Source: a virus. From it: DNA of 26,301 nt. This document shows, piece after piece, positions 5,303 through 26,301 of the stretch (positions are counted from its first letter, which is position 1; the number at the start of each line of letters is the position of its first letter). The stretch spans positions 1-26,301 of the IMG/VR virus record IMGVR_UViG_3300037320_000021; one strand, 5' to 3'. A program made the position numbers and the translations under genes. The notes below the pieces were generated by a model that was not told the origin of the DNA, searched no databases, and saw only the letters and a list, made by a program, of their open reading frames with translations.

Positions 5303-8218
5303 TTAAGCTTGTTTTAATCTTCCAATTACAGCCACCTCATTAGTGTCTATAACTTCTAATTGGATAAAACTATACTGACTTTCTGGTACTGCTAATTCAG
5401 TAGAAGGAAATCTTAGTGTTACACCACTTTCCCCTATTATAGTTACTTCCCCCGTACCAAATTGACTCAAAACAAATTTAGTTCCTATTGGCGTGTTTAA
5501 CTTAATTACTGCACTTACTGCACTAGAAGAAGTGAATAATGGTGCAACTGTTTTATTACTTGTTTGGAACAAATAGCTAGTTGCTGATGTTTTTGTTTTT
5601 ACGTTGGTTATTAGGTTTTTTGTTATATGTACATCTCCTTTTAAATATGTATTCTCAATGTCGTCGTTTCCTAACACTACTGTATTCGAACCTTCTCCTG
5701 TTGCATCGTTTCCGATAACAATTTCATTTGTTGAGTCTTCTTGTTTTGATTTAGTTTGTGATCCTATAAATACACTATCATTGCTGTTTCTGTTTAGTCC
5801 TCCAGCACCTATACCAAAAGCGGTGTTATTACTTCCTGTTTCGTTTAAACTTAAAGCACTTACTCCATTAGCGGTGTTAGAACCTCCTGTTGTGTTTAAA
5901 CTTAAAGCATTTACTCCATTAGCGGTGTTAGCACCTCCTGTTGTGTTTGAACTTAAAGCACTTACTCCATTAGCGGTGTTAGAACCTCCTGTTGTGTTTG
6001 CACCTAAAGCACTTACTCCATTAGCGGTATTAGCAAATCCTGTTGTGTTTAAACGTAAAGCACTTACTCCATTAGCGGTGTTAGAACCTCCTGTTGTGTT
6101 TAAACTTAAAGCATTTACTCCATTAGCGGTGTTAGAACCTCCTGTTGTGTTTGCACCTAAAGCACTTACTCCATTAGCGGTATTAGCAAATCCTGTTGTG
6201 TTTAAACGTAAAGCATCTGTTCCATTAGCGGTGTTATTACTTCCTGTTTCGTTTGAACGTAAGGCATTTAATCCATAAGCAGTGTTATTAAATCCTGTTG
6301 TGTTTGAACTTAAAGCATTTTTTCCATAAGCAGTGTTTCTTTCTATGCCTGCTTTACCACTATTCCAAATAGTCTTATCTATATTATCAAATTCTAGATG
6401 TGGGATTAGAGGATTTTTAGCCGCCAATAATAAATCAATTCCTAAATTTATTATTGCAGCTCCTGCATCTCCGATATCGCTTAAGTTATTACCAATCAAC
6501 AAAGCACCAGATAGAGAACTTGAAGAACCGCCTTGAACTCCTATAGTGTACTCTACAAACTGAGCCTTTGCAGTTCCTGCTGATGCCGTTGCTGTAGATT
6601 CTACTAACCACCAACCTAGTAACGTTGCATTTGTTGATAATGGATTAACAACATACTCTTCTAGCTTAACTCCTGCTTTTGCTAGTGTCATATTCGCATA
6701 GTTGCCTTGACCTAATTGCAAAGCTACAACCCCAGAATTGAAGAAATAAAGCCTTGAGCCCGAAACTGTTGTAGATCCTAGCGGTGTTTTAACTCCGTTA
6801 TTATCCCAGAACTTAGGAATTACAGTATTACCGCCCGAATCAGCAGAATCTCTGTCAGCCAACACAAAGCTTACATTTTCATTATTTGCAAAAGATGGCG
6901 TACTTGGTTCTAGTGAGTTTCCAGTACCTCCAAATCTTAACAATGAACCGGCACCAATTCCAAATCCTAAACTATTATTTTTTCCCGTGACTGTAAGTCC
7001 TTTTTTTAGCGGAACCCCCGCTTCTTTTACATAATCGACTACAGTTCTTATAAGATTTGAATATTGACCTAGTGGGTTATAGAAATATTCAAAGCCTATT
7101 ATTTCGTTTACATTAACATCAATAACTATCCTAGCCACAAAAGCTTTTCTTACAAACTCAACTGTCGTGGGATAAGTTGTTTGCTGTTCTAAATCCCCGT
7201 CCTTATTATAATAAACAAAAGTTGAGTTTGCATTTAAATTTTCAACAGTAACATTTAATTTCTCAGAAGGATTATTTGCTAAATAACCTTCATCACTACT
7301 AATTTCAAACTTTAATGATGATAGTGTAAAAACAGTACCTCCATTTGCTGCTGTAACCGTAAAAGAACTACTTATTCCAGTACCTCTAGCCGATACGCTA
7401 GTAGTAATATTGTTAATAGCTTGCGTAATAGTAGCGTTAGTTACCGCATTGTTTGAATTAATATCCAATGCCGTGTCTAATGCGTCGGCTTCTGGTGGCG
7501 CATCAGGCGTTGCGGTGTTAAGATTTAAAAAGTCATCTAATGTAGTTTGTGTTTCATTGATTCCTATCTCGCTTGTAGTTTGACCTACATATAAGAAATC
7601 AAACTCTATACCGCTTCTTTGAGATTTAAAAACTATTAATTGAGCTACGCTTGGATCGTATGGGCCTGAAGTATTAACCTCGTCTTGTATTTGTGAAGTG
7701 TCGCCAATCTCACCAAGGTCAAATATTGCATTTTCTCTTGAATCATCCTTGTCACTTACAAAAAACACAATGTCCTGTGAACTTATTTGGGTCGCATTAT
7801 CTCCATAATTGCCTTTTACACCTGTAAAAATATAATATTCTCTTGATATATTTTGTGTAAAAACAGATGAGCCGTTACCGATTCTAAGAGTAAATAATAT
7901 TAAAAATTGGTTTTCTGTCTTAGCAAAAGAGGTGTCTGCATTAATTATACTCGCTATTTGTGCATTAATAGCAGTATTGCTTTCGTAATCTATGCCAGAT
8001 ACTTTTTTAAATACTGGTATTACGTCATTAATTGCACTAGCACCACCACCGCCAACCAAATTACCTAATGGATATTGAACCGTGTTTTGTAAGGAATTTG
8101 ACCATACTGGCAATAACTCGTCACCCACTAATGTATTTAGGCTAGGAAGGTTTGGGGTTATCTTACTGTTTGCGATAGCTTGCTCAACTGCCTGTAATCT
8201 TTGTTCTAATGTTGCCAT
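5303..8218 (-). CDS. Tail fibre with 17-residue tandem repeats
   Basis: A 971-residue protein. Residues 1-30 form a short coiled coil (LEQRLQAVEQAI). The N-terminal half has several beta-rich regions and a Gly-rich hinge (56-60). Residues 628-797 are ten exact-length 17-residue repeats, NTAxGxxALxxNTTGxx, with an 11th diverged copy to 814. Then comes a YadA-head-like stretch (NEIVIGND, NTVVLGND, 830-860) and a beta-rich C-terminal domain. The repeat type is known from trimeric fibres and adhesins, so a trimeric tail fibre is likely. There is no visible S74 chaperone dyad at the C-terminus. The start overlaps the previous stop as TAATG (8218). Confidence 0.8.
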   Translation of the reverse strand: MATLEQRLQAVEQAIANSKITPNLPSLNTLVGDELLPVWSNSLQNTVQYPLGNLVGGGGASAINDVIPVFKKVSGIDYESNTAINAQIASIINADTSFAKTENQFLILFTLRIGNGSSVFTQNISREYYIFTGVKGNYGDNATQISSQDIVFFVSDKDDSRENAIFDLGEIGDTSQIQDEVNTSGPYDPSVAQLIVFKSQRSGIEFDFLYVGQTTSEIGINETQTTLDDFLNLNTATPDAPPEADALDTALDINSNNAVTNATITQAINNITTSVSARGTGISSSFTVTAANGGTVFTLSSLKFEISSDEGYLANNPSEKLNVTVENLNANSTFVYYNKDGDLEQQTTYPTTVEFVRKAFVARIVIDVNVNEIIGFEYFYNPLGQYSNLIRTVVDYVKEAGVPLKKGLTVTGKNNSLGFGIGAGSLLRFGGTGNSLEPSTPSFANNENVSFVLADRDSADSGGNTVIPKFWDNNGVKTPLGSTTVSGSRLYFFNSGVVALQLGQGNYANMTLAKAGVKLEEYVVNPLSTNATLLGWWLVESTATASAGTAKAQFVEYTIGVQGGSSSSLSGALLIGNNLSDIGDAGAAIINLGIDLLLAAKNPLIPHLEFDNIDKTIWNSGKAGIERNTAYGKNALSSNTTGFNNTAYGLNALRSNETGSNNTANGTDALRLNTTGFANTANGVSALGANTTGGSNTANGVNALSLNTTGGSNTANGVSALRLNTTGFANTANGVSALGANTTGGSNTANGVSALSSNTTGGANTANGVNALSLNTTGGSNTANGVSALSLNETGSNNTAFGIGAGGLNRNSNDSVFIGSQTKSKQEDSTNEIVIGNDATGEGSNTVVLGNDDIENTYLKGDVHITKNLITNVKTKTSATSYLFQTSNKTVAPLFTSSSAVSAVIKLNTPIGTKFVLSQFGTGEVTIIGESGVTLRFPSTELAVPESQYSFIQLEVIDTNEVAVIGRLKQA
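5828..6337 (-). repeat. Ten 51-bp tandem repeats in tail fibre gene
   Basis: Exact 51-bp period, ten full units plus a decayed one down to about 5777. A higher-order 153-bp duplication is visible: a unit marked TTAGCGGTATTAGCAAATCC begins at 6021 and again at 6174, and its neighbours repeat in the same order. Because 51 is a multiple of three, unit gain or loss keeps the frame. Confidence 0.92.
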
Positions 8219-23614: not shown

Positions 23615-23661
23615 CAAAGATACAACTATTAAACACATTAGCAAACAATAATAATGTTAAA
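23615..23661 (-). promoter_or_regulatory. Bacteroidetes-type promoter P2 with upstream box
   Basis: Minus strand: TTTAACAT (23661-23654), 8 bases, TTTG (23645-23642), 19 bases, TATCTTTG (23622-23615). The architecture is identical to P1 and P3. The upstream box contains the terminase stop codon. Probably drives the 70-residue gene and the head and tail genes beyond it, since no further copy was seen until P1. Confidence 0.8.
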
Positions 23662-24910
23662 TGTTTTTAATTATTCCCTCTTTTCTTAAGAATAGTACAA
23701 TATATCTAACAGCATCCATCAAGTGATTGTTTTTGTCTTCAGGTTCTTCAAGGACTACACCGTAACGATCAATCACTCTACTGTAGTTCTTTTGCTCTGT
23801 GTCGATGTTCTTTGAGTCTTGTGTATAATATACCTCTAATCCGTTTAGTATGTCTATACCGTCTAATATGCTCCCCTTTGTCTTGGTTGCTCTTAGTGCA
23901 TAATCAAATCCCATAGATCGTAATGCTTTTATTTTCTCTACGCGGTTGTTATCGCAAATTATAGGTCTGTTTTTGTTTATGTCTTTCTGTGCAAATAACC
24001 ATTTTATAAGGCCCTCTTCTTGATCTTGCAACTTTTTATTCATCGCGGTGCTTAAGCCTTCTCTTATTTGGTTCTCAGACTTATAATTAAGCTCTCTTAA
24101 GAATAGTCTACCATCGGTATATTTGGCCTCTATCATCGCCAAAGGGTCTACAGTACCCCAGTCTACTCCATAATAAACAGGTGCATCAAAATTATGATAA
24201 GTTTCAACGGTGCAACTATTCCAGAAAAATATTCTATTTGGATTAGAACCGATCTTACCTAGGCCGTATATTTGCCATTTGTTTTGATAGTACTTAGATT
24301 TTACATTGTTAACTATATCTAAGTTCGGGAGATTAAAATTAATGTATGCCTTTGATCTGTTAAGCTCAATTTCATTAACTTCTGTATGGTTTAGATATTC
24401 GTTGTCTTTGTAAGTAAGAATAAGAAACTCTGAATCATCACGATCTAATATATCAGTATGTACCCAAAACTCACTATTAGGATTGTAGTCTAGGATAACT
24501 TGTTTAGCTCGTGAGGTTAGTTCTCTGTAAGTCTCAAAGGTTGTCTTGTTGGCTTCGTTTAGAAATACAAGATCAGAACGTAAACCTTTTCCAATGTCTT
24601 CTTTATCTAATCCTATAAATGTAATCTTTGATTTGTTCCTAAACTCGTATTCTTTGCCACCTTTCCAACTATTGCGGTCAAAAATTTCAAACAGTCGCAT
24701 GATCTTAACGAAATCCTTTATGACCGTGATACGCATTTTAGAAAGCTCAGCCGATGCAATGTAGATGTCAAGACCTTCGTTACTGCTTGCATGATTAATG
24801 ATAAGCATAAGTATGCTAAAGGTCTTGCCTGCACCTTGACCGCCTTGAATTACTTTAATTCGCTTTATCATTGCGGCTATCTTTCTTAGAGCTGTGGTTG
24901 AGTTAATCAA
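23657..24910 (-). CDS. terL: Terminase large subunit
   Basis: A 417-residue packaging ATPase-nuclease. ATPase: Walker A GGQGAGKT (23-30), Walker B DLVFLNEA with E119, and a coupling-type motif DYNPNSEFW (141-149). Nuclease (RNase H fold): D250 in YYGVDWG, D320 in IICDNN, D399 in HLMDAVRY. Length is normal. The start is TTG 24910, since a TAG lies two codons before it; STTALRKI before the Walker region is typical for Bacteroidetes terminases and argues against the internal ATG at 24871. A hairpin terminator precedes it by about 15 bases. Confidence 0.95.
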   Translation of the reverse strand: MINSTTALRKIAAMIKRIKVIQGGQGAGKTFSILMLIINHASSNEGLDIYIASAELSKMRITVIKDFVKIMRLFEIFDRNSWKGGKEYEFRNKSKITFIGLDKEDIGKGLRSDLVFLNEANKTTFETYRELTSRAKQVILDYNPNSEFWVHTDILDRDDSEFLILTYKDNEYLNHTEVNEIELNRSKAYINFNLPNLDIVNNVKSKYYQNKWQIYGLGKIGSNPNRIFFWNSCTVETYHNFDAPVYYGVDWGTVDPLAMIEAKYTDGRLFLRELNYKSENQIREGLSTAMNKKLQDQEEGLIKWLFAQKDINKNRPIICDNNRVEKIKALRSMGFDYALRATKTKGSILDGIDILNGLEVYYTQDSKNIDTEQKNYSRVIDRYGVVLEEPEDKNNHLMDAVRYIVLFLRKEGIIKNI

Positions 24911-25574: not shown

Positions 25575-25936
25575 TCTTTTATTTTTAATGGATCTAGGTT
25601 CATTAGTGGAGTGTTTAAGCTCTTGCCGTCTGTGGTAATGTCTGTATGCGTCTGGCTTAACCTTCGTCTTTCTTCGTCACTACCTATGAGCTTCATTAAT
25701 CCCATTTGTAGTGTGGCGTTCTCTGATTTGTACCATTTAGACCGCATTGAAACTTTAATTTCAGTCTTTACTTTCGTTAGTGCATCTTTTATACTCTCTA
25801 ATTTCTCTAATTCATGGTTGTAAAAAGTAGCAGCAGAACATGGAAGGTAACTAATAATATCCTCATTAAAAAAAAGTTTATATTTCTCTATTGCTTCAAG
25901 TGATTTCTTTTCGAGTTCTTCTTTTTTATATGCCAT
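25571..25936 (-). CDS. terS: Probable terminase small subunit
   Basis: A 121-residue basic, helical protein. Residues 30-45 (YLPCSAATFYNHEL) resemble a DNA-recognition helix-turn-helix; a coiled-coil section follows (50-65), then MRSKWYKSENATLQ and LIGSDEERRRL, a pattern I know from small-terminase-type proteins next to Bacteroidetes phage terL genes. It would recognise the packaging site and load TerL. Three small genes separate it from terL, which is a bit unusual. The start overlaps the oxygenase stop as TAATG. Confidence 0.7.
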   Translation of the reverse strand: MAYKKEELEKKSLEAIEKYKLFFNEDIISYLPCSAATFYNHELEKLESIKDALTKVKTEIKVSMRSKWYKSENATLQMGLMKLIGSDEERRRLSQTHTDITTDGKSLNTPLMNLDPLKIKE

Positions 25937-26301
25937 TATTTTAAATTTACAAATGCTTTAAGTGGGTAAAATATAAGTGAGTTTCTATAACCGCCTTCGT
26001 GTGTTGGTGTTATTGGCGTTACTCCATGTATGTTTTTCCATGCAGGATAAACTAAAATAGAATTGTTTGCGCTATCCATTGTTGCTCCATAATCGGGAAC
26101 GTGTAAGTTACCACCCTTTGCATTTAATCGTTTTGTTATTATTACGTTTACCGCTCCAACTATATTCCCTGTATCTCTATGAAACGGTGCTGAAATATTA
26201 TAGTTTGATATAGAACTTGTCCAAAGGTTTCCAAACTGCCATTCTTTATTTACTTGTTCAAATAGTTTCTTTTGTGCTTCGTATTGCTCTGGTATTATTT
26301 C
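25936..26301 (-). CDS. 2OG-Fe(II) dioxygenase, TET/JBP-like (C-terminal part)
   Basis: The last 121 codons of a gene entering from the right edge. Visible double-stranded beta-helix motifs: FHRDTGN (H41, D43 iron ligands, N46), GGNLHVPDYG (63-72), IHGVTPI (H92, third iron ligand) and YRNSLIFY (R106, 2-oxoglutarate contact). HRDxxN, GGxLxxPxYG, HGxTPI and RxSLxFY occur in this order in TET/JBP-type nucleic-acid-base dioxygenases, some of which are phage enzymes that hydroxylate 5-methylcytosine or thymine in DNA. A more general 2OG oxygenase with a protein or small-molecule substrate cannot be excluded, because the N-terminal half is outside the window. Confidence 0.75.
   Translation of the reverse strand, partial: EIIPEQYEAQKKLFEQVNKEWQFGNLWTSSISNYNISAPFHRDTGNIVGAVNVIITKRLNAKGGNLHVPDYGATMDSANNSILVYPAWKNIHGVTPITPTHEGGYRNSLIFYPLKAFVNLK

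Follow-up and report, generated by a model that had tools for sequence, protein, structure and literature searches.

A TET/JBP-family dioxygenase gene beside the packaging genes of a tailed phage may close an exchangeable ParB-X-TET cassette acting on thymine

What does a dioxygenase of the TET/JBP family do in a phage when its gene lies directly ahead of the packaging genes, and on which base would it act? This question is raised by IMG/VR record IMGVR_UViG_3300037320_000021, a complete viral record of 26,301 bases (hereafter the window), in which a PHROG profile search revealed that end of a tailed-phage genome which carries structural and lysis genes. The record stops at position 26301 within the dioxygenase gene (TET), whose open reading frame is open at its 5' end (Table 1), and since the window spans the whole record, the sequence 5' of this end was taken from relatives. 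Based on these relatives, we consider it somewhat more probable than its alternatives that the gene closes a post-replicative ParB-X-TET cassette ahead of the terminase genes in a tailed phage of Flavobacteriia, in which TET would hydroxylate thymine and X, the gene immediately before TET, would decorate the product.

The part of the gene in the window encodes the last 121 of about 264 residues, as judged from the full-length gene of the nearest relative, L002 (7220-8011), and it contains every catalytic residue. The motifs FHRDTGN, GGNLHVPDYG, HGVTPI and RNSLIFY were all found in this reading frame; a sequence-only reading of the window had used them (as HRDxxN, GGNLxVPDYG, HGVTPI and RNSLIFY) to place the protein in the TET/JBP branch rather than among generic oxygenases. 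The profile search agreed with this placement, giving PF12851 (Tet_JBP) as the sole Pfam match at 37.7 bits against a cut-off of 34.9 (profile positions 51-161 of 164), together with phrog_6059 at 134.8 bits, and these scores are not due to chance. The full-length protein of L002 scored 45.1 bits against PF12851, and only Tet_JBP was seen in Pfam. Residues H184, D186, H235, R249, S251 and Y255 (L002 numbering) did not vary across the 11 diverse phage rows aligned. The HxD...H iron triad (H184, D186 and H235) and the 2-oxoglutarate arginine (R249) all lie within the window part, with their roles assigned through a weak TET2 register. The AlphaFold2 model of the L002 protein (predicted local distance difference test score 82.6, with residues 179-185 and 236-240 poor) matched TET2 with a Z of 16.0 and a root-mean-square deviation of 3.8 over 238 residues, and NgTET1 with a Z of 15.8 and a deviation of 3.2 over 204 residues, and it also resembled CcTet and CMD1. 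Outside the TET family, the best chain reached a Z of 11.7, FTO 11.4 and PHD2 9.9. Since profile, invariant residues and fold match agree on a real TET/JBP-family enzyme, the gene almost certainly belongs to this family, as judged from sequence and a predicted model. A prolyl hydroxylase or generic oxygenase was rejected, with no such match in Pfam and PHD2 far below TET2 in the fold comparison of the full-length relative. We also rejected a queuine tRNA-ribosyltransferase, the label given to the Tet_JBP family by PHROGs (phrog_6059) and by many RefSeq phage records, e.g. NC_020857 and NC_011044. Pfam finds Tet_JBP alone, and because the sequence supports nothing else, this label looks like a propagated error.

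What precedes TET could be seen in the relatives. The scan of IMG/VR with the TET end gave 430 relatives, and all counts on 80 loci cover the best 80 of these 430. Over the common part, the closely related TETs are 76-100% identical to that of the window. In the relatives, TET is the last gene of the order ParB-like, X and TET, and the packaging genes come next. The three genes were adjacent in 64 of the 80 loci; of these 64, ParB and X overlap by 4 nucleotides in 53, and X and TET do so in 37. In addition, 56 of the 57 loci having at least 2 kb upstream carried the ParB-like gene. Its product matches PF02195 at 33-36 bits and resembles the N-terminal part of phrog_498, a phage DNA-methyltransferase family. 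Among the 80 loci, X was an FkbM methyltransferase in 26, a putative glycosyltransferase ('cluster 6') in another 26 (weak matches, to phrog_842 at E 0.004 and to the TibC N-terminal domain at E 0.011), a TET-associated glycosyltransferase (TAGT, PF20691) in 15, a putative glycosyltransferase ('cluster 39', assigned by eye with no significant match) in five, a set of amino-acid:DNA transferase (ADDT, PF18724) and kinase in four, and a nucleotidyltransferase-like fusion in one; three loci were cut off. The P-loop kinase was recognized weakly by Pfam in L031 and strongly in the actinobacteriophage Prince, and neither ADDT nor kinase was seen in L002. The first large gene 3' of the cassette fell into several distinct large-terminase clusters (that of L006 had no Pfam match), so the cassette holds its place beside different packaging genes. 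Based on these observations, ParB-X-TET is very likely a DNA-modification cassette, and hypermodification adjoining the packaging genes, as the sequence-only reading had proposed, is well supported by synteny in the relatives. That reading had also suggested looking upstream for a methyltransferase or a glycosyltransferase; both were found in relatives, but the methyltransferase was of the FkbM type and not a cytosine-C5 enzyme. Two slots hold further genes, namely an FAD-dependent oxidoreductase-like gene at L064:1046-1858, and a glutamine amidotransferase-like gene with a putative GNAT gene (by eye) at L031:1809-2811, each of which may perform a tailoring step on an aminoacylated base.

The association also held when we started from the slot genes, using sets that overlap partly with the first 80 loci and, for the FkbM and TAGT counts, trimmed TET queries. 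The FkbM-first scan gave 80 loci; TET followed FkbM immediately at all 79 places with room, and ParB immediately preceded it at 72 of 73. The TAGT-first scan gave 55 loci, with corresponding counts of 52 of 52 and 50 of 51. The ADDT-first scan with L031 as the query gave seven loci including the query's own contig, all seven with the order glutamine amidotransferase-(GNAT)-ADDT-kinase-TET; ParB was in view at six, and L097 starts after the ParB position. We then placed the slot labels on a tree of 87 TETs built by a quick maximum-likelihood method; L013 was dropped from it as too short, and its long rows L100, L101, L092, L098 and L082 are unsurely placed. X changed at least 26 times over 83 labelled rows, a count that excludes L035 and L092 as well as L007 and L015, which had no slot label. 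The labels were still more clustered than chance with the exception of TAGT, for which 93 of 500 shuffles were equally low. L031 with its ADDT was nested in an FkbM clade (98 and 96% support in the SH-aLRT branch test), and L034 and L035 carry identical TETs with different slot content. These observations suggest that phages swap the chemical group placed on their DNA. Given at least 26 changes, the substrate of TET should exist whatever X is, and thus X should act after TET.

The slot gene of the window's own phage can be approached through L002, which carries ParB, FkbM and TET. The TET end of the window is identical to that of L002 at 364 of 366 bases, compared with 309 of 366 for L003, and the FkbM gene of L002 (6541-7230) matches PF05050 at 48.7 bits against a cut-off of 22.7. 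Because the TET end is nearly identical to that of this FkbM-carrying relative, the window's phage likely has an FkbM gene in the slot. Just outside TET, at window positions 25762-25881 on the start side of the small-terminase candidate, the identity to L002 drops to 43-44 of 60 bases before rising again, TET and the remainder of the neighbouring gene being far closer; this dip suggests recombination.

Which base, then, is the substrate? From gene context only, we lean moderately towards thymine. One TET clade pairs with a glycosyltransferase, FkbM or ADDT/kinase, so its substrate should exist without X, and thymine is the simplest candidate. ADDT, by its Pfam name, we take to belong to the thymidine pathway acting on 5-hydroxymethyldeoxyuridine (5hmdU). 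A homologue of thymidylate synthase/deoxyuridine monophosphate (dUMP) hydroxymethylase was found in none of 10 isolates and in 1 of 23 viral records. In phages M6, ViI and PhiW-14, the thymidine pathway consists of a DNA kinase for 5hmdU and, after it, further transferases (PMC6449724). The sequence-only reading had instead claimed oxidation of 5-methylcytosine, in which case a C5 methyltransferase of host or phage would make 5-methylcytosine, TET would convert it to 5-hydroxymethylcytosine and X would cap the latter. We regard this route as poorly supported, a real but rather unlikely alternative, and thymine fits better. The cytosine-C5 methyltransferase family PF00145 was never within the cassette, was absent from the window record, itself incomplete, occurred in only 1 of 11 records of at least 36 kb, and was found in none of 11 named isolate genomes (MED4-117 and MED4-184 of the closer clade and nine distant ones with TETs 21-26% identical in aligned rows). 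Moreover, ADDT and kinase are partners of this TET clade too, and the known pathway with a DNA kinase takes 5hmdU as its starting point. The TET clade of phage P12024L was tried as a 5-methylcytosine control and rejected, as PF00145 was present in 1 of its 19 viral records (a weak, partial match) and the methyltransferase of P12024L is of the N6/N4 type.

Several observations weigh against thymine or against the proposed role of FkbM. PF00145 does occur in 11 of the 80 relatives' records (5 of 38 and 6 of 42, three of them weak partial matches), several times about 2 kb downstream and past the large terminase, which counts for the 5-methylcytosine route, and its absence from the IMG/VR records is weak evidence because most of them are fragments. 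Among the seven loci with ADDT, L031 and L096 also have a C5 methyltransferase. The TET2 residues for base recognition, which we take to be N1387, Y1902 and H1904, are matched by N189 and Y255 at the first two positions and by L in the clade at the third (in a weak PDB profile register, E 0.72); H was found at the H1904 position in none of 11 phage rows, the TAGT-linked row included, and these residues do not point to a particular base. FkbM enzymes usually methylate sugars, and Foldseek gave the FkbM model no more than matches to generic class I methyltransferases. The window holds nothing upstream of TET residue 144, leaving its own X and ParB out of view. TAGT, which occupies the slot in some relatives, belongs to enzymes known from hydroxymethylcytosine DNA. 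Phage TETs have also been placed in C5-methyltransferase/glycosyltransferase pathways yielding glycosylated cytosine (PMC12730594). C5 methyltransferase genes outside the cassette, which may feed TET or be unrelated to it, were seen in L011, L012, L023, L031 (6937-7968), L033, L039 and L040.

Two further explanations were considered. The cassette might be self-contained, with FkbM methylating the base first (e.g. at cytosine C5) and TET oxidizing that methyl group. The invariable position of FkbM immediately before TET would suit this order, as would an rRNA uracil-C5 methyltransferase at the top of the Foldseek list for the FkbM model, but that match has a TM score of 0.50 among many generic methyltransferases, and the second Pfam match of FkbM, below cut-off, is RfbT, an O-antigen methyltransferase family. 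Since a glycosyltransferase or ADDT/kinase fills the slot in close relatives, TET cannot depend on FkbM, and we consider this explanation improbable. It is at least as improbable that the TET-like enzyme acts elsewhere, on tRNA, N6-methyladenine or protein, or is a remnant. CcTet, which appears in the fold list, also binds N6-methyladenine DNA, and the queuine label described above would point to tRNA, but that label lacks support in the sequence, the catalytic residues are invariant across the diverse phage rows, and the partners ADDT and TAGT are DNA-modifying families by their Pfam names.

If thymine is the substrate, the ParB-like protein would load on or target the phage DNA, and TET with Fe(II) and 2-oxoglutarate would convert thymine in finished DNA to 5-hydroxymethyluracil by hydroxylating its 5-methyl group. 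X, exchanged between phages, would then cap the hydroxymethyl group before the DNA is packaged. In the window's phage an O-methylated (5-methoxymethyl) base may result, because the X of the nearest relative is an FkbM-type methyltransferase; the product would, speculatively, be 5-methoxymethyluracil if FkbM caps the hydroxyl. Relatives with TAGT might yield a base-J-like glucosyl-hydroxymethyluracil, and those with ADDT and kinase an aminoacylated thymine. A modular thymine oxidation in full, with one TET supplying 5-hydroxymethyluracil and the swapped slot turning it into all of these products (the glucosylated one through TAGT or other glycosyltransferases), is a tentative scheme, possible rather than probable.

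How does this cassette compare with known systems? A phage pathway of TET, C5 methyltransferase and glycosyltransferase has reportedly been described by Burke et al. in 2021 and Pyle et al. in 2024, and Iyer in 2013 is said to have predicted that phages modify further the hydroxymethylpyrimidines made by their TET/JBP enzymes. Any novelty would therefore lie in ParB-X-TET with an exchangeable slot and in its FkbM member. The former pathway, summarized in PMC12730594, shares with the cassette the Tet_JBP family and TAGT. In contrast, the cassette and most genomes here have no C5 methyltransferase, almost all loci include a stand-alone ParB-like gene, and FkbM or ADDT/kinase can stand in for the glycosyltransferase. 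The thymidine hypermodification of ViI, M6 and PhiW-14 resembles the slot of some relatives in ADDT and a P-loop kinase, whereas the 5hmdU of those phages comes from the nucleotide pool at replication (PMC6449724), and the cassette isolates, in which no dUMP-hydroxymethylase homologue was detected, have TET instead. Thymine hydroxylation in DNA followed by glucosylation would be the same chemistry as that of JBP1/JBP2 and base J in kinetoplastids (PMC6449724). Unlike JBP1/JBP2, the cassette would add decorations other than glucose, and the thymine activity of the phage enzyme is inferred. At about 264 residues the phage TET is presumably too short to include a J-binding domain as well.

Among named phages, the actinobacteriophages Nigel, Prince and LilMcDreamy (gene-2 loci) also have ParB and TET near the terminase, Prince and LilMcDreamy with ADDT, and Prince with a PF18751 kinase following as well. 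Their TETs are labelled 'queuine tRNA-ribosyltransferase' or 'thymidine hydroxylase'; they differ in being only 24-26% identical (aligned rows) and in the order ParB-TET-ADDT instead of ParB-X-TET. In the Prochlorococcus phages MED4-117 and MED4-184 the genes stand in the order ParB-FkbM-TET-terminase, as in L002, with TET 53% identical over full length and FkbM 48%, but these phages have a cyanobacterial host and are not annotated as carrying a modification system. In P-HS2, TET and FkbM matches lie at coordinates identical to those in MED4-184. Other phage TET lineages stand beside ADDT or kinase-like genes at L107:7319-8952 (its transferase has no Pfam match and is ADDT-like by eye), L119:5404-9100 and L120:5491-9190, with no C5 methyltransferase in these records. 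Our literature search, with key prior reports outside its reach, came upon no description of ParB-FkbM-TET; this absence is weak evidence. As far as could be checked, a methoxymethyl or glucosyl product would be without precedent in phage DNA. If the proposal is true, phages make base-J-like chemistry from thymine with TET and exchange only the decorating step, as would be expected where host defences track the decoration. Closely related TETs with different partners form a natural set in which the choice between thymine and 5-methylcytosine by phage TETs is directly testable, and the cassette would be a source of new DNA-modifying enzymes.

Table 1. Annotated features at the terminase end of the window
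Feature	Position	Strand	Basis
Tet_JBP 2-oxoglutarate/Fe(II) dioxygenase, C-terminal 121 aa	25936..26301	-	open reading frame; PF12851; active-site alignment of relatives; fold of 264-aa relative
Small-terminase candidate, 121 aa	25571..25936	-	position only; one-base overlap with TET stop
Large terminase subunit	23657..24910	-	Terminase_3, 38.2 bits; phrog_2

The sequence-only reading had placed TET one gene before the small terminase. A gene does adjoin TET there and the large terminase was confirmed, but the small-terminase identity is positional only: the homologues of this gene (cluster 3, 43 members) lie 5' of the large terminase in relatives, and it had no PHROG match at E ≤ 0.01 and only a sub-threshold Pfam match. 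The host of the window's phage was taken as Flavobacteriia, since 52 of 52 records with portal protein relatives in the phage collection are phages of this class. A betaproteobacterial host, suggested by matches to two betaproteobacterial bin contigs in bacterial genomes, was not trusted, and the portal relatives were preferred. Elsewhere in the window, a 51-bp unit repeated 10.2 times (86% matches) at 5819-6337 encodes a 17-residue repeat in a 971-residue protein (5303-8218) that has no Pfam match and is probably a tail protein. A 627-residue protein encoded at 2842-4725 matches DUF285 repeats at 189 bits and, weakly, BspA-type leucine-rich repeats, and is a candidate receptor-binding protein.
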